NCBI GenBank assembly: GCA_025765595.1
Contig: JAIVFH010000069.1
Location: 62,001-126,000 of the forward strand
Origin: Obelidium mucronatum
Lineage: Eukaryota > Chytridiomycota > Chytridiomycetes > Chytridiales > Chytriomycetaceae
DNA length: 64,000 bases
Direction of reading: 5' to 3'
Shown: in pieces, positions 1 through 63,234 of the stretch
How the letters are laid out: the number at the start of each line of letters is the position of its first letter
How positions within the stretch are numbered: position 1 is the first letter of the stretch
Translations under genes and position numbers: made by a program
Notes under the pieces: model-generated
Databases searched by the model: none
The model's input: only the letters and a program-made list of their open reading frames with translations
What the model was told of the DNA's origin: nothing

Positions 1-1120
1 GGGAAGGGTGGATATTGGTTCGCTCCTAATTCACACGCATCACCCCTTACTTCTGGAAAAGGCAAGTTTGTTGAAGAAGTTTGATCATAAATATTAACGT
101 TTTGTTCACGAAGCGCAAACTGGGGAGGCGGAAGAATAGAGGAATGTTGGAGTGGAGATGTTCGTTGTTTGTTGGTGTTGTTGAAATTCGGAGTTGGAAA
201 TAAAAGAGGATATGCGCTTGCTTCTGATGCACTGTTAAATCGAGAGGAAAGAGTGGGTTGCTGTTGGTATTGTTGCGATGAATATTCTAGTGTTGATGCC
301 GTTGAAGCAAAGTCTTGCAGCTGTAGTAAGCTATCATTGCCATTACGCACAGCTGGGGCTGATACATTCGGGGATGATGCTGCCAGAATTGCTGAAATGG
401 CTTGTCTGCTGGCGGTGCGAAATTGCTCGTAATTTCCCATTTGGTGTTGCTGTTGAACTTGTCGTACAGGGTAGTTGTGGAAAGCCGGCGTTCCCAAAAG
501 ATTTGGCAGGCTCATATTGGGTAGATTTCCAAAATTCGGCTGTTGTTGCTGTTGTGCATAGTGGGAGTGATTTGGGGATGGCAACGATGTTGATTGATGT
601 GTCATTGGGGGCAACGGCGAAAAGCAGGCAGACGAGATTGGCTGATTATATTGCGGCGTATGAGGGTAGGAAAACATTGGCGTGGTGGCGGGATAGTGGG
701 CGTCAACAAATACGTGGCTGGTTCTGCCAAGTCCTGACTGGAGATTTTGGGGCTGGTTGTTCCCGACATCGTCTCCACAAATCTGTTGGAAGAACTCCAG
801 ATCCACGTCTAATCCGGCGCTGGCAGTATCCAATCCGACATCAAAGGCAGAGTATAAGGGGTCGACTGATCGGGGGGAAGAAGTCAAATCAGTTTCGGCT
901 CTTTTTAGTTGCAAAAGAGCAAAACGCCGGCTGCGCTCTCAAAGAGCCCAACTCGCTTTCACTGCATCTAAATTCATATAAACTCACCATTGTGGTGTTT
1001 TTGGTGCTTTGGCAAAGCATCTGCCCCATCAAAGTGGTTTGCTGCCGGCTGCAGCGGCGAAGGCGCCTGGAGAATGGAGGCCATATCGGGCCTGAGTTCG
1101 TTGAAAGTTGCGTCGTTCAT
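1..1120 (-). CDS. Q/N/S/P-rich protein, N-terminal part (runs off left edge)
   Basis: Minus-strand gene beginning at an ATG at 1118-1120 (protein starts MNDATFNELRPDMAS). Exon 1 (1120-988) ends in a GTGAGT donor. A phase-1 intron of 89 bp (899-987) ends in AG, and exon 2 is open from 898 to the window edge without a stop, giving more than 330 residues. The protein is rich in Gln, Asn, Ser and Pro with short Q runs (QVQQQHQ, SSQQYQQQP). No fold is recognisable in the visible part. Such composition is common in fungal transcription regulators, and the neighbours are zinc-finger genes, so a regulator is plausible, but any DNA-binding domain would lie outside the window. It lacks the G-P-G-G motif of the adjacent zinc-finger genes. 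Confidence 0.6.
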
Positions 1121-1366: not shown

Positions 1367-1968
1367 TTACGTGGTTGAAACCTTGCGACTGGCAGCCTTT
1401 GCACTTGAATATTGCTTGAATATTCTATCTGAAAACTCGTTTATTATCATGAAATAGTGCGAATTTTTTACTCCGCAGGACTCGATAACCCAAACCCCAA
1501 TGCAACTATCCTTTGAATGTCGAGCAAGAGAATCCTTCCTTGAAAACGTGATTCCACACACCCCGCATTTATGAATTGGCGTCCCAACCATCACGCTTTT
1601 GTGTACAGTCCGCTGATGCCGCACCATATCTCGACGGCGTACAAAGTCAGATGAACATTCGTTGCATCGATACGGTTTAATATTGCTATGGAGAAAGTAA
1701 TGTGACTTGAGGTTTGCAGCGTCCGAGAATTCTGAAGAAGCACGGTATAACTGACAGTCAGCCACCACCAAGCAGTCCCAAAAAACGTCAAACTTTACCT
1801 TTCTGGCAACCTTCCCAGGGACAAATAAGCAGACTTGCCTTCGCTATTTCGGACGAAACTTGATTTAGGTCGTCTGAAACTGTGGTGCGTGAAGATTCCT
1901 TGGAAGTGCACGAACAGACAGTCTGACAAGAGATTCACCCCTCCCGGACCTTTGAAGTGTGGTATCAT
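1367..1968 (-). CDS. C2H2 zinc-finger protein A, apparent frameshift between motif and fingers
   Basis: First member, reading from the left, of a seven-gene array. Exon 2 (1731-1367) carries most of three fingers: finger 1 CPWEGCQK|EF...LKSHYFLH, finger 2 YRCNECSSDF...VRHQRTVH, and finger 3 HKCGVCGITFSRKDSLARH followed by Cys instead of His (C2HC). A phase-1 intron (1732-1798, 67 bp, GTAAAG...CAG) splits finger 1 right after C-Q-K. The exon upstream encodes the array motif KGPGGVNLL at 1953-1927. However, the motif and the C-P-W-E-G-C start of finger 1 are in different frames, with a stop in each frame, so a one-base break lies between about 1926 and 1870. The ATG at 1966-1968 leaves only five residues before the motif, so the 5' end may be truncated or on an unseen exon. 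Likely a sequence-specific DNA-binding protein; targets unknown. Confidence 0.6.
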
Positions 1969-2197
1969 GATATTGCTAAAGTTATTTCTTAAGATGCATG
2001 ATCCTTCAATTGAGATGATGTAACTCGAATCGAGAGCTTACGATAGATAAGGCATAGGATTTACGGCGTATTTCGAATCCACTGATGTGGAGGTTTTTTT
2101 TCTCAAAAGAAAGTCAGCAGCACAACCAAAATTTAAAACTTGTCAAAGATTTATTAAAAATGACAAGGTTTCTATTTTTTTTTAGATCGAACACAGT

Positions 2198-3063
2198 TTA
2201 TAGTTTACGACACGTTTGCAAATGCCTTTGAAGGGAATCCCTCCTTGAAAAAAAGTCATGGCAATAAAGGCACTCAAACCCTTTTGAAGCGGCGGCATCG
2301 GCAGCGGTTAAAGAATTCGACGATTTGGCCGCACACAAGCCTGGCCGTGCTTGGTGCCTCAACAACGAATCTCGGCGACCGAATTTCGAATCACAAGCAG
2401 AGCAAACAAACTCTTTAATGTCCTTATGGACACTCATTTGGTGACGACCGAGGTCTCGGGCGCGAGCAAAAGCCAGCGGGCACGAAGGGCACTTGAACTG
2501 GCGGCCGTTTGTGTGGAGCAAGTAATGTGGCTTGATGTTGTAGGATTGAGTGAATTCTTTCTCGCACCCTTTCCAAGGGCATTGGTATCGTTTGATATTG
2601 CCTGGTTGTCGATATATGATAATTGGTTGTGGGCTAGTATCAGGAGTAGAACGAGTACAATTGCTGGAACCTAGCAGACCAAGTCCAACGCCTGTGCTTG
2701 TCGATGGCGGAAGTTGGAAGTTTTTGGTGCTTGTTGTTCTGTTGAAGAAATTTCGTAGCGGCCGCCATCGAGATGGAAATTGGGTGGCGATGAGCCAGTT
2801 GAAGAAGGGTAGCAATCCAAGGTATCGAGAAGAGGAGACATTTGAAAAAGTCCAGAGGGTGAATGGAAGGGGTGCTGATTGTTGTTTTGGGCTGGTATTA
2901 TGGGCTGGTTGAAATCGGGGCTTGCCAGGACCAAGGAGATACCTCCTGGTCCACGTAAAGAGGGTGGTGATGCGAGTGGTGCCGCCGAGTAAGGACTTGC
3001 TTGATAGGCTTTATCGTACTCAGCCATGGTCAGTGTCGGGCTTTCCTCATCCAAATCGATCAT
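2198..3063 (-). CDS. C2H2 zinc-finger protein B (four fingers, no finger-1 intron)
   Basis: Minus-strand gene. The N-terminal part (from an ATG at 3061-3063, M-I-D-L-D-E-E; a second candidate is MAEYDKAYQ at 3027) holds the array motif RGPGGISLV at 2955-2929. The C-terminal part holds four fingers: YQCPWKGCEKEFTQSYN...H, FKCPSCPLAFARARDLGRH, FVCSACDSKFGRRDSLLRH with a terminal Cys, and FECLYCHDFFSRRDSLQRH with a terminal Cys. Unlike five other members it has no intron inside finger 1. The fourth finger resembles the third and looks like a duplication. The motif part and the finger part are in different frames; the switch falls near an AAAAA run around 2725-2735 and no GT-AG intron fits, so it is either a sequence error or a real mutation. 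Presumed DNA-binding regulator. Confidence 0.65.
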
Positions 3064-3284
3064 TTCGTGGGGCGTTTTCTCTCCCTTTTTTTGAGTGGGG
3101 ATTGGCTTTTCACAGTCCAAATTTCCACCTCTTCCTTTGCCACCCGTTGCCAACACAGCCGCAACATCGCCACTTGACCAAATTTTTAAATGATTAAAAC
3201 GAAAAACGCGCACGAAGAAGAGAGATAGAAAGATAACTTTATTGCAAAAAATAGAAGGTTTTATTAAATTGTTGGTAAATTTGG

Positions 3285-3927
3285 TTATCTCGCGTGAAGC
3301 TTTGTATGCCGCTGCAAAGAATCTAACCGACCAAACACATCCAAACACACTGAACACGTGAATTCCCTTAGTCTTTTCATGGATTGCTTTGACATGCCGG
3401 CTTAAATCGCGAGGGACGAGCAAAAGTGGCAATACAAGTATCGCAATTGTATGGCCGAACGTTGAAATGCAGCCGGTAGTGCGGTTTTACGTTGTATGAT
3501 TGGGTGAATATCTTGTTACACCCTGGGAACGGGCATTTCAAGTTCTTTTTACACGGCGGCTGCGATAGCGATGGTGGTATCGTGTCGGGATTATAATCAA
3601 TGCTCTTTTGGGGTAGATGATCAGGTGAGTTTTGCTGAGGCCAAGATTTGGGACTTTCGAGAAGAAAGCGTTTGCACTGGCAGATCAGGAGACTTGGGTG
3701 ATGGATATCGCAAATCGGTCCGTTTGTTGATATGGGTGTAGCTGGTATGGATACGACCGGCGTTGGTCTGAGAAGCTTTTGGCTTGATGTTCCGGTAGTG
3801 TTTCCGGGTGGTTGATGCTGTCATTGCCGAATATTGAAACTAGTTCCACGCCGCCAGGTCCTTTGAGAGAGTGCATTGCCATTTTGGGGAGCAAACCTTG
3901 CTTAACCCAATAAATGAAAAATATCAA
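3285..3927 (-). CDS. C2H2 zinc-finger protein C (intronless, several frame breaks)
   Basis: Minus-strand relative of its neighbour at 2198-3063. Motif KGPGGVELV lies at 3864-3838. Finger 1 reads LKCPFPGCNKIFTQSYNV...H, finger 2 YNCDTCIATFAR then, after an extra base, RDLSRHVKAIHE, and finger 3, after another shift, FTCSVCLDVFGRLDSLQRH-TKLH, ending in TAA at 3285-3287. Its last finger is a canonical C2H2 (H-x3-H), whereas the other members end in C2HC. Like gene B, finger 1 is not interrupted by an intron and shares the T-Q-S-Y-N-[IV]-K-P-H-Y core, so B and C form a pair. At least three frame changes separate motif from stop. This is the most damaged-looking member and could be a true pseudogene, although sequence error is also plausible. 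The start is uncertain (ATG at 3925-3927 or 3880-3882). Confidence 0.5.
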
Positions 3928-4137
3928 GGAAATCGCTTAATTTTCAGCTGTGTGGCCCACGATTCCGCCACATTTTCTTTTTTTTTTTTTACTTGGTGGA
4001 GGCTTACGGATCTCCATTCCATCCATCACCAGCCCGGAACAGCCGTTGATTGGACACAGTGTATCCGGTCCGCATATCAACAAGCAAAAAAAAAGTCGAA
4101 ACGGAAAAAAGCTTTATTCTAATTTCCACATCCCTTC

Positions 4138-5010
4138 TTACCGCGAAACCACACCACCCCTCTTTTTGGTGGACCCGCAGATACGAACATGCCTTTGCAA
4201 ACTATCCCGCCTTGCAAACCCATTCCCACAAAAAGCGCAACTAAAATCCTTTGTCTCGGCATGAACAGTTTTCTTATGCCGCTCCACATCTCGTTGTCGT
4301 ACGAAATCAGCACTACACTGCAAACACTTGTAAGGACGTAGATTCGAGTGTAAAAAGTAATGGCTTTTGAGATTGTATGATTCAGAAAACTCTGCATTTT
4401 TGTTGGTTTTTTTTTTTTGTTTTTGTATTTTTTTTTTAAGAACCTTGTCAAAAGGGTTGCTGTACAAATTACCTTTTGTGCAAGATGGCCAAGGACATGA
4501 ATATATTCTTGTCACTCCATCTGCAGCGAATTTGACTATTGGCTGAAAGTCATTCATGGTGTCGGACAGGGAGTAACGGTTTATTCGATGCGAAGAAACT
4601 GTGCGAAAGTGAGAGTATGAAGAACTTGAAGACGAAGGACATGGTTCAGGAGAAGATGGTGGCTGGTCTTGCTCCAATTTGTAATTGTGGCTGTGGAAGT
4701 GGCGAGGGTTGATTTGAGTGTCGAATTGGGTATCATCCGCAATCAATATCGGATAAGCAGCGGAAGGACCAGTAGCATTGCTTTTATATTTGCGTATATG
4801 TGATGTGGTTTCTGGTGTGGTGCAAGTATCCGTACGGCTTCCGGTGCTAGTGCGGCTTTCATATCGTTGATTACTGAAACCAGTGTTGCCACTGCCCACT
4901 TCGTTGAGCAAGTCTACGCCTCCTGGTCCTTTGAGAGAAATAGGTGCGGTGACAGGATTACTGGAGGGTTGCATTAGGTCCGAATGGGAGAGAGTCGTGA
5001 CGTGTGGCAT
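4138..5010 (-). CDS. C2H2 zinc-finger protein D (frame intact)
   Basis: Best-preserved member of the array. Exon 1 runs from ATG at 5008-5010 (M-P-H-V-T-T-L-S) through the motif KGPGGVDLL (4932-4906) and a Ser/Pro-rich linker to CPWPSCTK. An 81-bp phase-1 intron (4392-4472; GTAATT...GCAG) interrupts finger 1. Exon 2 gives EFSESYNLKSHYFLH, finger 2 YKCLQCSADFVRQRDVERH, finger 3 FSCAFCGNGFARRDSLQRH-VRIC (C2HC) and a short basic tail, with stop at 4138-4140. The intron happens to be open in frame, so a naive ORF fuses exon and intron. Expected nuclear DNA-binding protein of about 260 residues. Methionine codons further upstream are in frame, but the peptide they add is hydrophobic and unlike the other members. 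Confidence 0.75.
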   Translation of the reverse strand: MPHVTTLSHSDLMQPSSNPVTAPISLKGPGGVDLLNEVGSGNTGFSNQRYESRTSTGSRTDTCTTPETTSHIRKYKSNATGPSAAYPILIADDTQFDTQINPRHFHSHNYKLEQDQPPSSPEPCPSSSSSSYSHFRTVSSHRINRYSLSDTMNDFQPIVKFAADGVTRIYSCPWPSCTKGNLYSNPFDKVLKKKIQKQKKKTNKNAEFSESYNLKSHYFLHSNLRPYKCLQCSADFVRQRDVERHKKTVHAETKDFSCAFCGNGFARRDSLQRHVRICGSTKKRGGVVSR

Positions 5011-5326
5011 GCCCAAATTTCGAATGATTTTTTTTTTGCGTGCTCCACAAAGCACAAAAGTGGCGATCAAGAGAAAAAAAACACACATTGAGGTTCCAAA
5101 AAAAATCATATGGCTGGTTGTGGCGGTGATACCAAAAAAAAATCGACTTTTTTTTTGAACTCAGAAATTAGAATCAGGTTTATGTTACAAGTATAAAAGA
5201 TATAAGACAATCTATTTTGGTCACAATAATAAAAACGGGAGGTGTGATAAAAAAAAGTAGTGGGGTAAAACATTGAAAATCTACAAAGAAGTGACAAGCG
5301 AGAGAGACGAACCATGCGGAGGGCAT
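5011..5326. other. Intergenic region between zinc-finger genes D and E
   Basis: A/T-rich with A8-A10 runs and a TATAAAAGATATAAG stretch near 5193. It should hold the promoter of gene D and the 3' flank of gene E. No gene. Confidence 0.4.
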
Positions 5327-6310
5327 TCAAATAGTGCAAGACTTTTCATGCCTTCTCAGGGCATCAGATCTTGAAAATGCCATCCCGCAGCTTCGGCAGC
5401 ACGACATTGACTTTCCTCTTGAGTGCACAGTTCGTTCATGCCGAAGCAAGTCGTGTTTACGAGTAAACTTGATGGGGCAAGAGGTGCATTCAAAAGGACG
5501 GATATTATTGTGTTCGTTATAATGTACTTGTAAAGTGCAAGGACGTGCAAATGCTGAGGATGGAATTATTGTTGTTGGTGGTTGGTATTAGGTAAGCCAC
5601 AAAGAACACATTATTTTGTTTCATTAGAACTTACATTTAGAACACCCTTCAAACTCGCACTTGTATTTTTTAGGCCGAGGTTTCGTTTTAAAAGAAGCTG
5701 AGCCGTGTCGTTGTTTTGATGAAGATGAAGATGATCTATTGGCACCAACAGGAGAAGCCACATTTTCCGAGATTAAAAAGTCCCCATCCTCGTCGTCGTC
5801 GTCCGGGCGCGACGCCGCAAAAGACGCTTCCGAGTGGGATGTGGACTCTTCGCGCGCCGAGGCGCGGTTGCGCGCGTATGAGTCACCCCTTTGTGGGCTT
5901 GACCATTGGTCATCCAAACGCACGTCGGCGTACGCTGCGGCGGCCTCGGGCTTGGCAGGCGGGCGCCAGGGTCGGCGACGGTGGCGGCGGGTCGAGTAGC
6001 AGGTTGACGCCGCCGGGGCCGCGGAGCACTGGCGGGTTTTGCGGCGTTGATTCGTAATACATTGGAGGAGTGTGTGTGGCTGCGGCGAGGCGCTTCGGCG
6101 TGTGGGATTCGAGGCCGGCAGAGAAGAGGCGGTGGGAGAAGGCGGTGGGCGCGGTGTGGCAGATTGGCATATCAGAGGATCTAGGGCAACTGGTTCAGCA
6201 CAGGGAAGTACTTGGTATTTTGTGCTGGCGTTGTAACTGCAGAATGAACAAGGCTGTAGAATGTACTGGCTGAAGACTGGAGGGCGATACGGAGCTTGGG
6301 TGTCGTGCAA
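5327..6310 (-). CDS. C2H2 zinc-finger protein E
   Basis: Exon 1 from ATG at 6308-6310 (M-H-D-T-Q-A-P-Y) to KYKCEFEGCSK at 5635. An 81-bp phase-1 intron (5554-5634) splits finger 1. Exon 2 (5553-5327) gives SFARPCTLQVHYNEH, finger 2 FECTSCPIKFTRKHDLLRH and finger 3 MSCCRSCGMAFSRSDALRRH-EKSC (C2HC), then stop. The array motif RGPGGVNLL (6023-5997) is present but lies in another frame than the flanking exon-1 sequence, implying two compensating one-base breaks in this very GC-rich stretch (about 5780-6110). The simplest explanation is sequencing indels, because the motif itself is perfect. Asp/Ser-rich segments (DDDDEDGD; a Ser run) precede the fingers. Confidence 0.65.
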
Positions 6311-6704
6311 TAAAGCTTACCAAGAAAATATTCGAAAGTGGCTCGACTCTTTGGTTTTTTAAGAAATTTTTCTTCTGTGGTTTTGCGAATTTGTCTGGTG
6401 ATGGATGACCAAGCAAAAAAAAAGGGGAAACGTGACGTTGACTTATCCTGGTATCACACTTTGTCATTATGCCTGGTGCTTTACATCCCAGTTGCCGCAA
6501 TCAAAAGCACAGAGAAAAACTCAGGAAGTCGCCGGTTTCTGTGAAGCTGCCGGGTGGTCGGACTGTCCGCATCCCACAGACACCAACGAACAAAAAAACA
6601 AAGAAATTCACATTATTCAAGAGGCTTTATATAATACGACATACATACACACAAAATTAGGTTTTGTAAAACAAATAAAAAATAAAAACAAAAGTTGATT
6701 TCCA
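6311..6704. other. Intergenic region between zinc-finger genes E and F
   Basis: About 390 bp with A/T runs and an AATAAAAAATAAAAA stretch just past the stop of gene F. No gene. Confidence 0.4.
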
Positions 6705-7731
6705 TCACTGTGGCAAGCAAATCTTTTCATGCCTCCTCAACGAATCAGGCCGAGAAAAACCCCTTCCCGCATCCCGAACAAACGTCCATTTTGGGACCAT
6801 TCGAATGAACAGTCTTTTCATGTCGAAGAAGGTCGTTTTTCCTTGTAAATCGAGACAAACAATACGTGCAGATATGCGAAGGGACATCTGGATGAGTAGA
6901 ATATATATGAGATCGTAAATCGCTTGACTTTTGGAATTCTGTTGTGTTTTGTTTGGTATGTATTTGGTTAAATGAATTGGAGGTAGATAAGCGGGTGGCG
7001 AAGTCGCATTTTCACAAACCTTGGTCACAGCCAACATGCGAACAGACGTAGATACGATCGCCTTGTGCATTCACTTTAATGATTGCAGAGGAAGTGCTAG
7101 ACGTGACACTCCAGTCTCCTTCGGGACTCCGAGGCGGAGCCGCCGCCGCTGGTGGTGCTGGCGCAGCGATATCAATTGGTCGCAACAAGTTCTGGTTCCC
7201 AACAATAAACTCCCCATGATATTGACTCGCTATCGGCCCCAACGCTCGCATCAAGGTAGGGTTCCGGAAGTCCTTTGCAAACGTTCCGGTACGAGGATCG
7301 CGGATAGGTAACGAGCCAATCAGCATTGCGTTGTGATAGTCTCTTGCTTGGATACGTGTTGAAGGAGACGACTCTTCGCTGAAGGCGCGGCTTCTTTGGT
7401 GATAATGAGGACTTGGTTGGGGATCGGGTAAGATGTATTCTGTCATGTAGATATCGTCTTCTTCGGGGCTGCTGTTGTCGTTGAGGAGGTTGACTCCACC
7501 GGGTCCGTACATTGGGGCGGAGGAAGAGATCATTGTTTTGATGTTCATTGGCGATGAGGCGGTTGGAGTAGCGTACATGTGTCTGCTGGCGCCGGGAATT
7601 GCGATAGGGAGTGGGGGTGATGAAGGGAGAGAGGTAGCGCCACCGCCGATTGCACTTGGTGTTGATTCGATTTCCATGGATTCGTAAGGCAGATTTTCGA
7701 AAGGATTGTTGAGGGTGGAGCGAGCGTGCAT
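6705..7731 (-). CDS. C2H2 zinc-finger protein F
   Basis: Exon 1 from ATG at 7729-7731 (MHARSTLNNPFENLPYES) contains the motif YGPGGVNLL (7509-7483), an acidic stretch (PEEDD) and a Pro/Ala run, and ends at YVCSHVGCDQ. An 81-bp phase-1 intron (6939-7019; GTTTGT...CAG) sits inside finger 1. Exon 2 supplies EFQKSSDLRSH, finger 2 HICTYCLSRFTRKNDLLRH, and finger 3 DVCSGCGKGF-SRPDSLRRH-EKIC. The third finger is read only if one T is dropped from a TTTTT run near 6760; otherwise a TGA follows. The closest relatives by finger sequence are E and G, which share [HK]D/ND-x-L-R-H-x-[KR]-T-V-H-S. Presumed DNA-binding regulator. Confidence 0.68.
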
Positions 7732-8064
7732 TCTTCCTTGTTCTTAATTGAAGTGATGAACGAACGGGGGGGTAACAGCTTTCCAAATTTCTTATTGGAA
7801 AAAAGTGATAGGGGTATCTAAAAAGTGGCGTATGTCATCAACTTTTCGTGGACCGATAGGGTTTTTATCTACCTGTTTCACGGAAGTGCAAAAAAAAAAA
7901 AGTAACAAGAAGACACTGGAAATAACGAACAAAAATAGAACCGATAGGAACCCTGCCGCGGCGGCCAATCAGGCGGCCAATTCCAATTTCGAAGGAATAA
8001 AATGCGATATATATTTACTAAAGACAGAAGATATGTACAACACGATCTAAAATAAAACAGCGAT
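7732..8064. other. Intergenic region between zinc-finger genes F and G
   Basis: About 330 bp, with an A12 run and the 3' flank of gene G. No gene seen. Confidence 0.4.
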
Positions 8065-8931
8065 TCAACCCAAACACTTTCTCTCATGTCTTCTCAAAGA
8101 ATCCGGTCGACTAAACGCCTTCTGACAATGCTGGCAAACAGAATTCGACTGAACAACACCATTTGAATGAACAGTTTTGAGGTGTCTCAAGTAGTCATGA
8201 CGTCTAGTAAACCGAGCTACGCAGTGAACGCAGTTGTGTGGTTTACTGTTTGTGTGTTCGTTGTAGTGTGCTTCGAAAGTATCGGAGCGGAGGAATGCTA
8301 ATTGAAAAAACATTTTTGATATTAGTTTCGTTTGTTGTAATTAGACAGGGAAGAGTGTGGCGTGTTACACCCGCCACTCTCTGTTTTAGTACTCACATTT
8401 TCCGCATCCGTCCCAAGGACATATGAGCACGTTTTGCTTTCTAGAGTTTTGGGCCATGACAGGAGATGCGTTGTTTTTGTTGTTGAATGGCGACATTGAA
8501 GTGGCGATGGTTGTGGCGGAGTGATTGTGACATGGAAGTGGTGTAGAGTAAAGCGGCACTCGGGGTGGTGTATGCAAGTTTGAAGGGATTTGCATTGCGT
8601 GGAAGTGTAGTTGCTTTGGCGCCGTCCGGTGAGGGATACTGTGATATGTGTGAGACTCTGGGAGGTGCAAGTCGGGGACGAGGGCTGGAAAGAGGGGTGC
8701 TGCTGCTGGCGATAGCTCCGGGCTGTCCAAGAGCAAGTTGATTCCTCCGGCGCCTCGCACACTAGAAGATGTAGAAGTGGTGCTGAAAGTTGAAAGCGAG
8801 GAGATGGCAGGAGAAGCCATGTTGGGGACGGGAGGCGATGGAGGCATCATGCTGTATGGCTGTTGGTGGCTGTAGTTGTGTGGCTGGTATTGACAGGTCG
8901 TTTCTTGATAAGCAGCTTGTGTGTGGGGCAT
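8065..8931 (-). CDS. C2H2 zinc-finger protein G (frame intact)
   Basis: Seventh and 5'-most member. Exon 1 (8931-8398) runs from M-P-H-T-Q-A-A-Y through a Tyr/Gln/Ser-rich region and the motif RGAGGINLL (8757-8731; Ala replaces Pro) to NVLICPWDGCGK. A 100-bp phase-1 intron (8298-8397, GTGAGT...TTAG) follows. Exon 2 gives SFLRSDTFEAHYNEH, finger 2 HNCVHCVARFTRRHDYLRH, and finger 3 SVCQHCQKAFSRPDSLRRH-ERKC (C2HC), with stop at 8065. About 250 residues with no frame break. The start resembles gene D (M-P-H-...). It is separated from the divergent SIN3 gene by about 1.07 kb. Confidence 0.78.
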
Positions 8932-10001: not shown

Positions 10002-13000
10002 ATGTCAGAACCCGAACAAGCAGCACCGCCGATGCCGACGCAGTGAGTGGCGCCGACCGAAAGAAAAATGCAAAAACTAAACTTACTTCTTTCTTTCTTT
10101 TTGTCTCCCGCCGCGCGCAGCCCGGTCCTCGTTCCGTCGCCGACGCTTCCGCCGCAGAGCGTCGACGGCGTTCCGCTTCCGCTTCCGGCGCCTTCCGCGT
10201 CCGCGTCCGCGCCGCCGCCGCCGGCGGAAGAGCCAAGCGGGCACGGCCAGCAGAGCCAAAGCCAGCAGCAGCAAACACAGCAAAGCCAACAGCAACTGCC
10301 GCGTCTCGCGCCGCTGTCGCCGCAGCTGCCGATTCCGCAGGGAATGGCTCAGCAGCAGCAGCAGCAGCAGTTCAGACTGCCGCAGCCACAGGCTCAAACT
10401 TACCAACAGCCTCAGCCGCAAATACACCACCAACCACAACCACCTCCACCACCACAGCAACAGCAACAGCAACAACAGCAGCAGGAAGGGTCGCGATCGC
10501 TTAACGTCAAAGACGCACTGACCTACTTGGATCAGGTGAAGGCCCAGTTCGCAAACCAACCAGACGTGTACAACAGATTCCTGGATATCATGAAGGACTT
10601 CAAGTCGCAAGCGTGCGTTTCCTTTTTTTCTTCCTATTCTCCGAAAATACCGTGTGCTCAAAAAATGCGACTTTTTTTATTCCAGAATCGACACGCCAGG
10701 CGTAATTGATCGCGTCTCGAATTTGTTTCGTGGCCATCCATCCCTCGTCACTGGCTTCAACACGTTTCTGCCCCCTGGATACCGCATTGAAGCAACTTCC
10801 AACCCCCTCGAACCATTTCGTGTTATTAATCCGAATGATGGTCCCAGAAACTTTGGTGCTCCTGTAAAACCTGTCGCGCTTCCTCCGGCTTCTTCTTCTT
10901 CATCAACTGCTCTTTCTCTTGCTCCTTCTTCTTCGGTTGGTCCTGGGAGTAGACATGCTTCTATTCCGCCGGCTCCTGCTCATACTTTGTCTCCCAACGT
11001 TCCTCATTACAGGTTTGGTTTTTTTTTTCGCGCCGAAGGCGAGATCCTGCCGCCGTAGGCGGGTTTCTTACCGCCGTAGGCGGTTCTTTTACCGCCGTAG
11101 GCGGTTGTCTTACCGCCGAAGGCGGTCGTCTTACCGCCGAAGGCGGTGTGTGTTTGGTATAGGTTTTACTTCCAAACTTAACTCCAAACTCAATGTGTAC
11201 TAAACATCTCTTTTCGAAAAAACAGCGTGGGACCACCAATACCCCCACAACAACACCAACAAAGCGGACCACCCCTGCCACAATACTATGCATCGCATCA
11301 AGTTCAACCCGGACCTGGCTTTCAAACTCAGCGTGACCATCCACAAATTCCAACTCATTCTTCACTTCCTCAGCCATATCCTGCACCAGTAGCAGTTGGA
11401 GTTGCTCAGCAGCAGCCACCACCGCCTCCGCAACCTCCAGTTGATCTTGCGGGTGCAGCTAAAAAGACACCGGTTGAGTTTAGTCAGGCCTATTAGTTAT
11501 GTCAACAAGATCAAGGTAGTGTTCCTTTCACTCTTTTCTTTTGGGATTATATGACGCTTATACATGACAATTATCAGAACCGCTTTGCAAATGATCCCGA
11601 CACGTACAAACAATTCTTGGAGATTCTTCAAACGTACCAAAAAGAAAGCAAACCAATCCAAGACGTTTATGCCCAAGTTCAGATTTTGTTCAAGAGTGCT
11701 CCGGACCTGTTGGATGAATTCAGGCACTTTTTGCCAGAAGTTAATTCAGTCATTAATAACAACAACAAAGGTTTTTGGTTTTTCCTTTTAACTTTTATTT
11801 ATACTTAATTAACATAATTTTTTAAAAAAAAAAAAAAGCTCAAGCGGCGAATCAAGGTCCTCCAAGAGGCCCTCCAATCGGTAACTGGGTTGGACCTGAT
11901 GCCCGTCGAGTATCAGCAACAAATATCCCAGCGCCGCCACCCGCACAACCGAAAAAAGCGGCGGGAAAGAGACCCGGAGTGTTCAGTGGACCACAACCAG
12001 GATACCCACAGCAACCTGGTGGCCAACCTTCCGGTGGTGCTGCTGCTCATGTCCCTATGGGAGGCGTGAATCAGCAACCTGCAGCAACAGCAGCAGCAGC
12101 GCAACCACCAAAGAAGCGAAAGTATGAAACCACTCGTGGCAGTACCAATGCTGCGAATCCGGCTATTGGTGGTTACGTTCAGGGCGGGCCTCTTGCCTCT
12201 GGTCCTGGAACAAGTGCATCTGCATTCCCAGGGGATACTGGTGTCCAAAACAATGCGTATGCAGCATCGTCGGCGGCGGCCACTGGTGGAAGTGCGCAAC
12301 TTCAGCTTCCACCACCTGGTCCCAACGGCAATGTGGAAGAGCTGGAATGGATTGATCGATGCAAGCGGTCGATTGGGAACAAGGCAACATACAATGAATT
12401 CCTGAAAGTGTTGAATCTTTTCAGCAATGAGATTATTGACTCCAAGACATTGGTGGAGCGGGTGGAGCCGTTTTTGGCAAAGAGTCCGGATTTGTTTCAG
12501 TGGTTTAAAAAGTTTGTAAAGTATGAGGAGGAGCAGATTGTTTGTGAGTATTTTTTGTTTTATTTTATATATTTTTTTGGCGTTTCTTTTTTCTGACTGT
12601 TTTTAACTTTTGGTCCATTGTGTGTAGATAATTATCCGGCACAGAGAGCTGAAATTGATCCCCGTAGTTGTCGTAAAAGTGGACACAGTTATCGCCAGCT
12701 TCCTGAAAACGTGAGCCTTTCAACGGTTTTTAAGCCTCTTTTGCTAACTCTTTTTTTTGGACAGTATCCTCGCTCTCAATGCTCTGGTCGAGATGACCTA
12801 TGTCGCGAAGTCTTGAACGATGATTGGATCTCCCAACCAGAATACGTTTCCGAAACCGGATTCATTGCCCACAAAAAGACAATCTACGAAGAAGCTCTGC
12901 ACAAGTGTGAAGAAGAGAGATATGAATTTGACATGAACATTGAAGCCAACTTGCACACGATTTCTCTGCTTGAACCGATTTACCGAAGAATTCAGGCCAT

Positions 13001-39468: not shown

Positions 39469-42286
39469 ATGCGCTCCTTCGTGATTCTTTCCGTCGGGGC
39501 CCTTTTGGCCAATGCGCAATCATCATCATCCGTCGTGGCCGCGAGTTCCTCATCCAGTGCCGCTCCAACAACTACAACTGCCGCCGTTGTCTCATCATCA
39601 TCATCCGCCGCCGCCACCACCACAGCTGCTGCTGCCACCACCACTACAACAACCGCGGCTCCAAAGCCAAGCACAAACGCATACTTTGCTGCTCTAGAAT
39701 GTACACCAGGATACACTGGAATCAAGTGTATTGACTCTGACTACTTTCAAAGTTGTACCAACGGAGGTTTGTTATTTTTAATCTTTTTTTCATCTAGGTG
39801 TGTGTCTATTTCGGTGATATTAACCCCCAAAACGCATTCTTTTTCCCTAGTTGCCGACACATCTGCTTCCAACAAGTGTGTAGCTGGAACCTACTGCTGT
39901 GGTGGAAAGGCTTACTGTGACTACGACAAGACTTGTGGTGGAAAGACTGAATACTGGTCCAAGTCTGGAAGCACTTCTGGGATCTACTGGTGGTTCTACC
40001 GGTGGTTCGACCGGCGGTTCTACTGGTGGCTCTACTGGTGGTTCTACCGGTGGTTCTACCGGTGGTTACACTGGCCCCAACCCAAACACTGGTTCATGTG
40101 CTGGAAAGGCGAATGGAAAGATTGTCTGTGTTGATGACCTCAACTACAGAATCTGTGATGGTGGTATGCCATCTTATGAAAAGTCTTCTTCCTGTTCTGC
40201 TGTTGGATACGGTCTTCACTGTTCTGAGTTCAAGAATGGTTGCGACTGGCAATCATGGCAACCAGGTACTTCTACCGGAGGCTCTACTGGCGGTTCCACT
40301 GGTGGATCTACTGGAGGATCGACTGGCGGTTCTACTGGTGGTTCTACTGGTGGTTCTACTGGTGGTTCAGGCTGGATACTACCCAACTGCGTGCTCGAAC
40401 GTTGGTGGTATCGGAATGAGCTGCCAGGACTCTAAAAACTTCTACATTTGCGAAAAGGGCGGTGAGTAGTGAAATCCGAAAAAAATGCTTTGTGTAAATA
40501 CTAAATAAGCAAATAGTTGCCACTACTAAGGGAGAATCTCCTCTCATTTCTTGTGGACCAAACACTTTCTGTTGTGCCGGTCAAACTTCTTGTGGATGGG
40601 ACGCTACTTGCAGCAACACTTACAACCCAGGCTACCTCTGGTACTGGCTCAACTGCCGGAACCGGAACCGTCATTGCTGGATCTGGTGCCGCCAACACTG
40701 GAAAGTGCGCTGGAAAGACGAACGGTCAAATCGCCTGTCTTGCTGGAAACAACTATGGAATCTGTGAAAACAATGCTCTCGCCTACGGCAACCTCTGTTG
40801 CCCAGTTGGTCAAATGTGCTGTGAAAACAAGAACAGATGTGATTGGAGCTGTGATGCTGCTGGTCCAGCTACCCCACCAGTTACTGTTCCATACGTTCCA
40901 GCCACCACATGTGACAAGCTTCCGGACAAGTACATTGTCTGCAACGGTGCTACTAAATTCAACATTTGCAAGGATGGAAAGCCTGACCCAGCTACCTTGT
41001 CTTGCCAAGCTGGCCAAGTCTGCTGCCCGAACTTGAACCGTTGTGACTGGGCTGGTTGCCAATCCTACAACCCACCATCTGGTATTTGTGCTGGAAAGCC
41101 AGACAACTACTGCTATGCCACATCTGCTACCACCTTCAACCAATGTTACAATGGTGCCGCCGTTGTCGCCGCTAGTCAAAGTTGTCTCTTTGGCCAGGTC
41201 TTCTGTGAGAACCTTCAACGTTGCGACTGGCCAGGATGCAGTGGAACCCCATCCCCAGCCTGGACTGGTACCTATGTTCCAACTTACCCAGCTCTTCCAT
41301 ACAACCCAACTTGTGTCGGAAAGAAGAACGGTGCCATCACTTGTCTTAACGCTTACCAATTCCAAACCTGTAACGGAGACGGCACTGCTGCCACTGGTAT
41401 TCAAAAGTGCGCCAACGATGGAACTGTCTGTTGCGAGAACCTTGGACCACAAGGACAGTGCGGATGGCCAGGTTGCATGCAAGCCGGAACCACCACTGTC
41501 CCATTGTTCCCAGGAGGCCCATCCAAGGACTACTGTGACTCTCAAACCCACGACTACGACCACATGGGCAAGTTCTGTGTCGGAACCCGTTCCAACATGT
41601 GGTGCAAGGACGGTGAGCTCTCTAGAATCAACTTCTGTCCAAGTGACCAAATCTGTTGCGAACAAACTGGTGAATGTGGTTCTGCTGGAAAGGCTTGCTT
41701 TGTTCCAAAGGGAATCCCAACCCGCAAGGAAGGATGTGTCGGAACTCTCAACACTTGTACCGACTTGGCTGACGCTGCTCGTGTCTGTACCGGCGAAAAG
41801 ACTTTCTCTTACTGTCTTGACCAAAAGGTGTTTGCTCCACTTCAACAATCTTGCCCAACTGGAACCAAGTGCTGCCCCAAGTTGGGTGGTCGTTGCGAGG
41901 AGGACTGTGACTACCCAACTCAACCAGTTGGTCACTGTGATGACAAGCCAGATGGTGCCACTGTCTGTAACGGATACAAGTCGTACAAGATTTGCCACAA
42001 TGGTGGATGTCTCGGAACATTTGACTGTGTTGGTGCCGACAAGGTCTGTTGCCCACTTACTGGATCCTGCACAACCAAAGGAAAGTGTGACTCTACATCC
42101 TTCTGGCCGGTTGTTGACCCAGAGTGTGTTGGAACTTTGAACAAGCGTGTCTGTGCCGTTAACAAGAAGACTGTCAGCATTTGTTTGAACGGAATCAAGG
42201 TTGCTTCATTCCCAGCGTCATCAGACAAGTACAACTTTGGATGTGACGACGACTCACTGACACCAGACTCTACATTGTACAACTAA
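39469..42286 (+). CDS. Secreted multi-module Cys-rich protein (about 11 CBM19-like modules)
   Basis: Signal peptide (MRSFVILSVGALLANA), then a Ser/Thr/Ala-rich mucin-like segment, then about eleven copies of a 45-55 residue module C-x-G-K-x-x-G-x-I-x-C-x(5-6)-Y-x-x-C-x-x-G-x(6-12)-C-x-x-G-x-x-C-C-x(5-7)-C-[DG]-W-x-x-C, for example CAGKTNGQIACLAG and CDWSC near 40700-40860. Two S-T-G-G-repeat linkers lie at about 39977-40065 and 40268-40370. The C/G spacing resembles CBM19-type chitin-binding modules, but that is by eye only. Introns interrupt modules 1 and 3 at the same codon (phase 1, after the C-x-x-G; donors at 39767 and 40462). Three one-base breaks occur near 39977, 40369 and 40628 in repetitive sequence; from about 40640 to the stop the frame is open for 540 codons. 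Probably an extracellular wall or adhesion protein. Confidence 0.8.
39975..40370 (+). repeat. Gly-Gly-Ser-Thr codon repeats (two blocks)
   Basis: Two minisatellite-like blocks (about 39975-40070 and 40268-40370) of the 12-bp unit coding G-G-S-T, one before and one after a Cys module. Such tracts can change length by slippage, and the frame breaks of the gene cluster at their edges. Confidence 0.8.
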
Positions 42287-61401: not shown

Positions 61402-63234
61402 ATGGCATCGATAGAATCGCAGCCACTCATTGCATCGCAAAGCAGCAATCGGTCGCGGTCCTCGCTGATTCGATACTATCCAGACACGTATACAGGGCGC
61501 GACGATGACGGTGACAGTGAAAGCGATGACGAGTGTTCGCGGCCAGGGGCGATTGATGTGGGAGTTCTTGGTGGAGGAGGAGGCGAGGTGCCAATTTTAT
61601 TATTTCAATTTTATTTCAATTTATTTTAATTTTAATTTATTTAATCTCAATTCTTTTTGCAGCCGAAAGACACGCTCTTTGCGCTAGTGTTTGTGCTCGC
61701 GTTCCTCGCGTTCGTCGTCGCGGGGGTGTCTGGCGTGCAGACGGCGCACCACGACGAGCGCGACACCCTGCGCGGCACCGTGTACGCGGCGCTGCGCAAC
61801 TCGCTCGGCGCGCTGCTCGGCGCGGCCGCGGTATGACTCATGCTGACTGCGCACGCTGACTAATCGCAAACGGCAGGCGGCGGTGCTCGGCGGCGTCGCG
61901 TGGATCGTGGCGCTGGCGGCCTTCGTGCGGCCGCTCGTGTGGGCGTCGCTGGCCGCAATCCCGCTGCTGTGCGGGGGCGTCTTTGCCTTTGTGCTGACGG
62001 ACGCGCTGCTCGGGAAGGCAAACGACCCCGTGATCCTGGATCCGCAGTACAACGCAATGATTGGCGTGTCGTTCGTGTTTCTGATTGCGTCGTTTGTGTC
62101 GGGCTCCTTCCTGTACAAGGAGCGCAAAAACATTGACAAGGCAATCAACATTATCCATCTCGCGTGCCAGATCATTTGGGAAACTCCTTCCATCTTCTCC
62201 CTCTCGCTCGGCATCCTCGGATTCTACTCGCTGTTTTCTTTTGCCTGGGCTTTTGCCTTTTCCCACTTGTTTCTCTCACGCGACCCCTCAGCGCCGCCGT
62301 CAGAATCCTTGACTTTTTCAACAGAAGTTACCATTCTGTATTTTGTCTTTATTCATTTCTGGACTACCGCTATTCTCTCTTCTATCGTTAAAATGACGAT
62401 TGCTGGTGTCGTTGGTCAATGGTACTTTGGAAGGCATTCGGATGATACTTTTGATGATGATCATGGAAACAGTTTGGTGGCAAAGAGTTTAAAGAATGTT
62501 GTTGGCCCCGCTTTTGGTTCTGTTTGTTTTGCAAGTCTTGTTGTTGCTACTGTCGAAATTATTCAGTTTGTTGTGAGGACTGTCCGGAAGGTGTGTTACG
62601 ATTACCGCCGAAGGCGAGCTTTCACCGCCGAAGGCGGTGTAGTAATTTTTCAGTCCCACTGCCTGCGGCGGCCCAGATATTCATCGTACTCACTCATTGA
62701 TTTCTTCAGAACTCACGAGGAAGAAATAGCCCAATCATCAACTTTGTGGATTCTTGCATGGACTGCACAGGACGCGCAGTCAGTCAAATCTCATCGTACA
62801 CTCTCATTTACTGTGGTCTCACTGGTGCTGGAGTCTGCGAGGGAGCTTTCGAATGCACCCGCTTATTCAGGCGGAATCTTGTGATTGGAATGGCGACCGC
62901 CGGAATCACTCGAACTCTCTTGTTTTTCGGCGCCAGTGCTGTTGCTGGCGGAGTTGGCTCTGGGACTTTCTTTTACTCTGCAAGAGGAACTGGAAGTCCA
63001 TATGCCTGGGTTGTGGGGAGCATTGGTGCTTTCGTTCCTTTCTATATCATCCGGTTCATGTCCCAGATTATTCAAAATACGTGAGTATTTTCAAGTTGTC
63101 TTCGATTATTTCAATCAACTAACAGCAATTCTAGCGTGGATGCAACTTTCATCTGTTACATGTTGGATGTAGATTCGAACGCAAATAATTGCCAAGAAGC
63201 ACACGAAATCTTTGAGAATGATCTGGGTATTTGA
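61402..63234 (+). CDS. Choline-transporter-like protein (CTL/SLC44, PNS1 family)
   Basis: Multi-pass membrane protein. Cytosolic N-terminus MASIESQPLIASQSSNRSRS, acidic D/E/S stretch, then an intron (about 61588-61662) and the first helix (LFALVFVLAFLAFVVAG). Intron 2 at 61831-61876. The next exon carries most helices, the loop KERKNIDKAINIIHLACQII and MTIAGVVGQWYFG, a family block. The intron 62591-62709 contains two copies of the GC palindrome. Then VDSCMDCTGRAVSQISSYTL, GVCEGAF, and a last exon DATFICYMLDVDSNANNC (family D-x-x-[FV]-x-C-Y) ending at 63232-63234. The first long exon (61680-61990) is very GC-rich. No frame break needed. Confidence 0.88.
62604..62638. repeat. GC-rich palindromes inside choline-transporter-like gene intron
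   Basis: Two copies of ACCGCC-GAA-GGCG(GT/AG): 62604-62618 ending GCGAG and 62624-62638 perfect, about 20 bp apart. They match the array in SIN3 intron 3 in sequence, spacing and order (first copy ends GCGAG), and lie in the same orientation relative to transcription. Confidence 0.85.

Follow-up and report, generated by a model that had tools for sequence, protein, structure and literature searches.

A tandem array of C2H2 zinc-finger genes sharing a short glycine-rich motif in the chytrid Obelidium mucronatum

The array and its genes

We analysed a 64,000-nucleotide window of the Obelidium mucronatum (Chytriomycetaceae) genome, which covers positions 62001 to 126000 of contig 69 (C69) in an assembly of 48.3 Mb, so that a window position is the contig coordinate minus 62000. 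At its start lie minus-strand C2H2 zinc-finger genes that share a short motif of the form GPGGVNLL. An earlier note, made from the letters of the window, had described a head-to-tail array of seven such genes. The tandem arrangement held, but the count did not, as the window cuts the array: it comprises 18 head-to-tail C2H2 genes on one strand over approximately 21 kb, and runs past the window start by 12 kb, on the same strand, to C69:49.6 kb. The genes were named in contig order, P to Z and then A to G, the last seven being those already noted, at the array end. Their seven motif copies lie on the minus strand where the earlier note had placed them, each followed by C2H2 fingers (Table 1). 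The spacing of roughly 100–180 residues that it gave between motif and fingers agrees with genes B, C, D, E and G (105–140 residues) and with the model of F (about 155), but not with A, where only 115 nt intervene.

C2H2 fingers were recognized in all 18 genes, by pattern or by eye, although their number is not always three, and the Pfam family PF00096 (zf-C2H2) was matched in five of the five array members scanned, at E values up to 0.01. An intron at one place inside finger 1 was inferred for 12 genes (P, Q, S, V, W, X, Z, A, D, E, F and G), and this shared position marks them as descended from a common ancestor. B, C, U and Y have an uninterrupted finger 1, and in R and T finger 1 was not found on inspection of the array sequence. 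The spliced models of G, W and X are identical, letter for letter, to the annotated proteins BDR26DRAFT_868928, BDR26DRAFT_623180 and BDR26DRAFT_921587, respectively. The motif is present in 15 of the 18 genes, 13 times in its strict form and twice in a degenerate one (GPGGRSIL in gene S and GPGAISLV in gene Y), and no copy was found in T, U and Z even by a lax pattern in three frames.

Table 1. Genes and motif copies of the array that lie in the window (window coordinates)
Feature	Position	Strand	Remarks
Gene G	8065..8931	-	Exon 1 8931-8397, intron 8396-8298, exon 2 8297-8065; three fingers; identical to BDR26DRAFT_868928
Motif of gene G, GAGGINLL	8731..8754	-	
Gene F (ends approximate)	6705..7731	-	Motif in frame with fingers 1-2; finger 3 frame-broken in this assembly; intron 7019-6939; Siphonaria orthologue P0161
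Motif of gene F, GPGGVNLL	7483..7506	-	
Gene E (ends approximate)	5327..6170	-	Motif and fingers in different frames as assembled; finger-1 intron 5634-5554; Siphonaria orthologue P0007
Motif of gene E, GPGGVNLL	5997..6020	-	
Gene D	4138..5109	-	Motif and three fingers in one frame once spliced; intron 4472-4392; start codon uncertain
Motif of gene D, GPGGVDLL	4906..4929	-	
Gene C (ends approximate)	3282..3882	-	As assembled, motif and fingers fall into more than one frame; no interruption of finger 1
Motif of gene C, GPGGVELV	3838..3861	-	
Gene B (ends approximate)	2198..3062	-	As assembled, motif in another frame than the fingers; four fingers, the first uninterrupted
Motif of gene B, GPGGISLV	2929..2952	-	
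Gene A (ends approximate)	1367..1968	-	Motif out of frame with finger 1 and 115 nt before it; intron 1798-1732
Motif of gene A, GPGGVNLL	1927..1950	-	
Gene Z (continues outside the window)	1..1120	-	Canonical three-finger C2H2 gene without motif, inside the array

Conservation and distribution of the motif

A degenerate DNA pattern of the motif matched 24 times in the 48.3-Mb genome, while the same pattern read backwards matched four times. Thirteen of the 24 matches fall inside a single 20-kb stretch, the array, all on one strand, and none of the 11 matches elsewhere has a C2H2 finger within the surrounding 3-kb locus; the clustering of the motif is therefore beyond chance. The strict motif was found in none of 24 other finger-bearing loci fetched from the genome, some of which are haplotype pairs.

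In the 15 copies of the array, the codons of the glycines G1 and G3 have zero entropy at their first and second positions, a fixity that is in part a consequence of choosing most copies with a pattern demanding Gly. The third position, which was not part of the selection of copies, shows 1.71 and 1.78 bits of a possible 2. Beyond the few positions adjoining the motif, no residue is common to the flanks of the 15 copies. The near-saturated third positions and the unshared flanks argue against recent copying or gene conversion and against an element acting at the DNA level. These sequence comparisons indicate that the motif is under selection as protein, and the near-saturated Gly codons thus bear out the earlier proposal that it is selected for. 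The conserved stretch is longer than the nine residues first described. As judged from 34 instances, reduced to 24 after dropping those at least 60% alike, its extended form is hydrophobic-[KR]-G-[PA]-G-G-[IV]-[NDSE]-L-[LVM], followed by an acidic tail. A hydrophobic residue stands two positions before G1 in 22 of the 24, and K or R directly precedes it in 16; D and E make up 50 of the 144 residues in the six positions after the motif as compared with 36 of 473 further on, and K or R only 1 of 144.

We then considered 162 proteins fetched from three protein searches, one of which gave the best 120 of 569 matches; candidates had to share exact five-residue words, and the set includes unnamed metagenome proteins without taxonomy. 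Among the matches listed, the strict motif occurs in 21 of the 162 proteins, all 21 from Chytriomycetaceae: four are from Obelidium and 17 from Chytriomyces sp. MP71, C. confervae, C. hyalinus, C. cf. hyalinus JEL632 and Siphonaria. It is carried by 21 of the 22 named Chytriomycetaceae proteins listed and by 17 of the 18 from genera other than Obelidium, so that the motif, whose standing had been made to depend on related species, is indeed present in them. The sole named family protein lacking it, P0024 (Rhizoclosmatium), is a partial model with the last fingers only. The motif was in none of the 140 other proteins among the matches listed, and two of chytrids outside Chytriomycetaceae, P0153 and P0157, have canonical fingers and no motif. 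A profile of the pre-finger region retrieved eight proteins at E values up to 10, all from Chytriomycetaceae; six have at least one complete finger, and P0039 and P0162 stop within finger 1. Motif and C-terminal fingers thus occur together in several genera of the family. Two motif-like stretches each were observed in P0039, P0064 and P0042, apparently gene-model fusions of neighbouring array genes.

The finger regions were compared in a tree of 32 rows and 91 columns, which omits Q, contains several partial rows and has long branches for V, W, P0008, A, B and Y. Array genes grouped strongly with genes of other genera in five cases: G with P0086 (Chytriomyces), F with P0161 (Siphonaria), E with P0007 (Siphonaria), D, A and B with three Chytriomyces rows, and P with eight Chytriomyces rows. 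The motif is found on both sides of each of the five groups, one row of the D/A/B group (P0042a) having a degenerate copy only. These groupings indicate that five or more array lineages were already present before these genera diverged and that the motif was kept in each. Together with the distribution of the motif, the tree bears out the earlier suggestion of a lineage-specific family grown by tandem duplication. The Siphonaria orthologues of F and E have consecutive locus tags (HDU68_006623 and HDU68_006624) on contigs of equal size, and four family genes of JEL632 are on a contig of 607,412 bases, the same size for all four, suggesting that clustering is probably common to these genera. Gene Z groups with genes of Boothiomyces and Phlyctochytrium, i.e. 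of other chytrid families, and judged by this placement it looks like an old motif-free relative inside the array. Between its motif and fingers (window approximately 7200-7350), gene F has a long block, approximately QARDYHNAML.GSLPIRDPRTG...DFRNPTLMR, which is common to Siphonaria P0161 and was not seen in other array members.

A proposed docking role for the motif and its alternatives

An AlphaFold model of gene G (13 sequences) had a mean predicted local distance difference test (pLDDT) score of 61 and a predicted template modelling (pTM) score of 0.31. The fingers were confident (mostly 84–95), while the N-terminus scored 41–56 and is predicted to be disordered; the motif region is a low-confidence coil with neither strand nor helix (residues 51–70, mean pLDDT 49–55). 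A place in a predicted disordered region agrees with the earlier view of the motif as a linear element. Most proteins of the family would accordingly be built from a disordered N-terminal region with one short linear motif and a C-terminal block of fingers. A Gly-rich turn, a hydrophobic strand and acids in a disordered tail make up the usual shape of a strand-addition peptide, which suggests a docking role. The motif would dock all its carriers onto one shared cofactor, whether activator or repressor; a short strand, [IV]-x-L-[LVM], probably oriented by the Gly-rich turn, would add to a sheet or groove, with the acidic tail meeting a basic rim. We assign a probability of about 0.65 to the reading that these genes form a family of C2H2 transcription factors, mostly with three fingers and specific to Chytriomycetaceae, arranged as a tandem array in Obelidium, whose motif docks a cofactor. 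If the motif binds a single cofactor, it could serve directly as bait to find that cofactor in a phylum of early-branching fungi, and as a signature for searching out a family of factors to which domain libraries give no more than a generic C2H2 label.

Alternatively, motif and acidic tail could form the core of a transactivation domain in loose contact with Mediator or similar coactivators, which we regard as unlikely. The hydrophobic core and the enrichment of acids after the motif would suit such a domain, but activation domains rarely keep fixed positions, whereas the Gly residues here are fixed with third codon positions near saturation, and both Gly and Pro speak against the usual amphipathic helix.

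Another reading, which overlaps with docking and would supply a known partner, is that the motif has diverged from a known class such as the CtBP PxDLS-like, SUMO-interacting, HP1 PxVxL-like or mitogen-activated protein (MAP) kinase D-site motifs. This was examined with patterns of these classes, the relaxed forms of which were made after the motif had been seen. Among the 34 instances, the relaxed, post hoc patterns overlap often: [PG][VI][DENS][LI][LVM] in 32, hydrophobic-x-hydrophobic-hydrophobic with an acid in 30, and a loose one-basic D-site in 24. The unrelaxed patterns behaved differently. The CtBP pattern P-[LVIPME]-[DENS]-[LM]-[VASTRG] fits none of the 34 in both forms, only its relaxed form fitting; the parallel and antiparallel SUMO-interacting patterns match 0 of 34 each, as do PxIxIT, EAR, eh1 and RVxF; the Cbk1 docking pattern [YF]xFP overlaps the motif in 0 of 34; and the two-basic MAP kinase D-site matches 1 of 34. 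The HP1-binding PxVxL pattern also matches one of the 34, and a genome search for Chromo_shadow gave no match, a control search being equally silent. Since no class accounts for the fixed G-[PA]-G-G, we consider descent from one of them decidedly unlikely; that none of the linear-motif patterns tried fits as a class agrees with the earlier statement that no named motif of this form is known.

It is more doubtful still that the motif packs inside the protein, in dimerization or in autoinhibition of the fingers, or that it serves as a signal for processing or degradation. Eight of the 24 non-redundant copies have an SP or TP no more than two residues past a hydrophobic residue of the motif end, which could point to such a signal, but AlphaFold places the motif in a low-confidence coil, which at that confidence argues only weakly against packing.

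Several observations weigh against a conserved docking motif in a functional array. Although the motif is 6–8/8 identical as compared with 30–47% identity in the rest of the N-terminus in seven of the 11 pairs compared, its identity does not clearly exceed the background in the other four: F/P0161 (5/8 versus 69%), P0132/P0158 (6/8 versus 92%), G/P0086 (4/8 versus 45%, one column being an alignment gap) and P0160/P0008 (2/8 in a global alignment that missed the motif). The first half of P0042 (P0042a) has a degenerate copy without the Gly frame, and three array genes (T, U and Z) lack the motif altogether. Moreover, in this assembly motif and finger 1 are out of frame with each other in six of the 15 motif-bearing genes (A, B, C, E, V and Y); in R the frame of the motif differs from that of the second finger, the only one usable, a difference that a finger-1 intron may explain, although none was found. 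The frame is also broken inside finger 3 of F, and C has more than one break. When a single intron was sought with limited donor patterns, E and V each gave two weak candidates, and A, B, C, R and Y gave none. A portion of the array may be in decay.

Finger searches of the genome with Z and D revealed no second, near-identical (haplotype) copy of the array. A comparison of haplotypes was available at a second array, on contig 80 (C80:119001-129000, array at 119–129 kb; haplotig C274:18001-28000), which consists of tandem two-finger C2H2 genes without the GPGG motif. In at least two of its genes, paired by match scores, the open frame is short on C80 and long on C274 (125 versus 395 and 125 versus 285 amino acids), so that a frame break in this assembly may be an error or specific to one haplotype. 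The haplotigs differ by 124 mismatches and 31 indels in 5060 aligned bases, and most of the 1–2 nt indels among those listed lie between genes; with 124 of 5060 aligned bases differing, the sequenced organism looks strongly heterozygous or diploid. That the copies are alike merely through recent duplication or gene conversion, or that the array is mostly pseudogenes, without any function, is highly improbable: six, perhaps seven, of the 15 motif genes out of frame and the broken finger 3 of F would favour it, but the third positions are near saturation, the flanks share no residues, the motif is kept in orthologues of other genera along five lineages, and the intact models of G, W and X equal annotated proteins.

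Predicted DNA target and relation to known systems

The base contacts of the Obelidium array are uneven among fingers. Finger 2 has R at position -1 in 13 of 13 rows, D at 3 in 13 of 13 and R at 6 in 12 of 13; finger 3 has R at -1, D at 2 and S or A at 3 in nine of nine each, and R at 6 in eight of nine. In finger 1, every contact position varies among 14 rows. Under the zinc-finger recognition code, fingers 3 and 2 would read a common core near 5'-G(T/A)G-GCG-3', and the variable finger 1 would set the last (third) triplet, so that the array might supply factors with overlapping targets and one common effector. The predicted core is close to the CrzA site presumed for A. nidulans, 5'-G[T/G]GGC[T/A]G[T/G]G-3' (PMC2818617). 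The diversified contacts of a KRAB-like arms race were not observed, as fingers 2 and 3 are nearly invariant and only finger 1 varies; an arms race with transposons acting on the fingers, which would be expected to produce the opposite, is thus not indicated.

With regard to Crz1, the finger contacts of the array appear to agree with the contact residues ascribed to it. Unlike Crz1/CrzA, array members other than Z have no HTGERP-type linker. The PxIxIT-like calcineurin docking pattern was found in two of eight array proteins (W and X), and once in Z, and is sporadic in the array; one match in W ends directly before the W motif. The LxVP-like calcineurin pattern is likewise sporadic, in two of eight. 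Finger 2 contains F.RNHDL.RH, which bears some resemblance to Swi5/Ace2, and the record of P0139, a relative, is named 'Metallothionein expression activator', a name used for yeast Ace2.

In their overall plan, the KRAB, ZAD and FiNZ systems of animals resemble the array: their C2H2 genes are lineage-specific, some of them lie in tandem clusters, and the proteins have an N-terminal effector stretch in common. FiNZ of cyprinid fish is a 28-residue, glutamate-enriched stretch without significant similarity to known domains (PMC10547256), and among ZAD proteins the linkers vary, with 37 of the 91 fly genes being clustered (PMC7655104). The Obelidium family differs in the length of its stretch (approximately 10–16 residues), in its occurrence in a fungus, in having three fingers in most members, and in the conserved base contacts of fingers 2 and 3. 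No KRAB or ZAD domain was detected: in a Pfam scan of five members, starting at the motif, the matches were to families of zinc-finger type apart from a weak one to FOXP-CC, and full-length G, W and X have no precomputed Pfam domains other than C2H2-type ones. NCBIfam, a prokaryote library, had no match for five proteins. To call the array a new system, which the earlier note held to be plausible, is too strong, as C2H2 clusters with a shared short N-terminal effector are already known. By this analogy, what appears new is the motif itself and its occurrence in a fungus, the kind being known and FiNZ nearest to it. Among the matches listed in PMC (one listing being the best 10 of 1,295), the family, the motif and the fungal setting were absent, and no paper joined GPGGV with zinc finger, or Chytriomyces with zinc finger and transcription factor. 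Neither did the accessible parts of surveys of fungal factors and gene families (PMC5415576, PMC10406608) and of PMC8778642 mention the motif family.

The contig-80 array has a motif of another kind, [FL]EN-x-x-[LIV]-L-[EQ]-x-F, in four of its approximately eight genes (FENQEVLEQF, FENGELLESF, FENGSLLESF and LENGDILQEF); a fifth has a weaker form and the others have none. These few sequences from one genome suggest that each cluster may have its own effector tag. We tentatively propose, as a possibility somewhat short of even odds, that chytrids, independently of animals, have tandem C2H2 clusters each with its own short effector motif, in which the tag rather than the fingers would define the regulatory output. 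If so, fungi would have arrived separately at an arrangement seen in animals, zinc-finger clusters with one short effector in common, here with DNA contacts conserved instead of diversified. A third C2H2 cluster, with several fingers per gene and no strict GPGG motif, is located at C38:138001-148000; no obvious shared N-terminal motif was apparent there on a quick look.

Other features were observed next to the array and elsewhere in the window. Directly past the last array gene, outside the window, C69:48046-49476 holds an open frame of 477 residues that is ankyrin-like by eye, and a plus-strand open frame at window 39884-40432 contains a run of GSTGGSTGG-type repeats. At the other end of the array, a gene resembling that of the corepressor SIN3 (window 10047-12596, plus strand) starts on the strand opposite to gene G, approximately 1 kb upstream of it, and matches Pfam PAH repeats, one of them with an E value of 1.6e-17.

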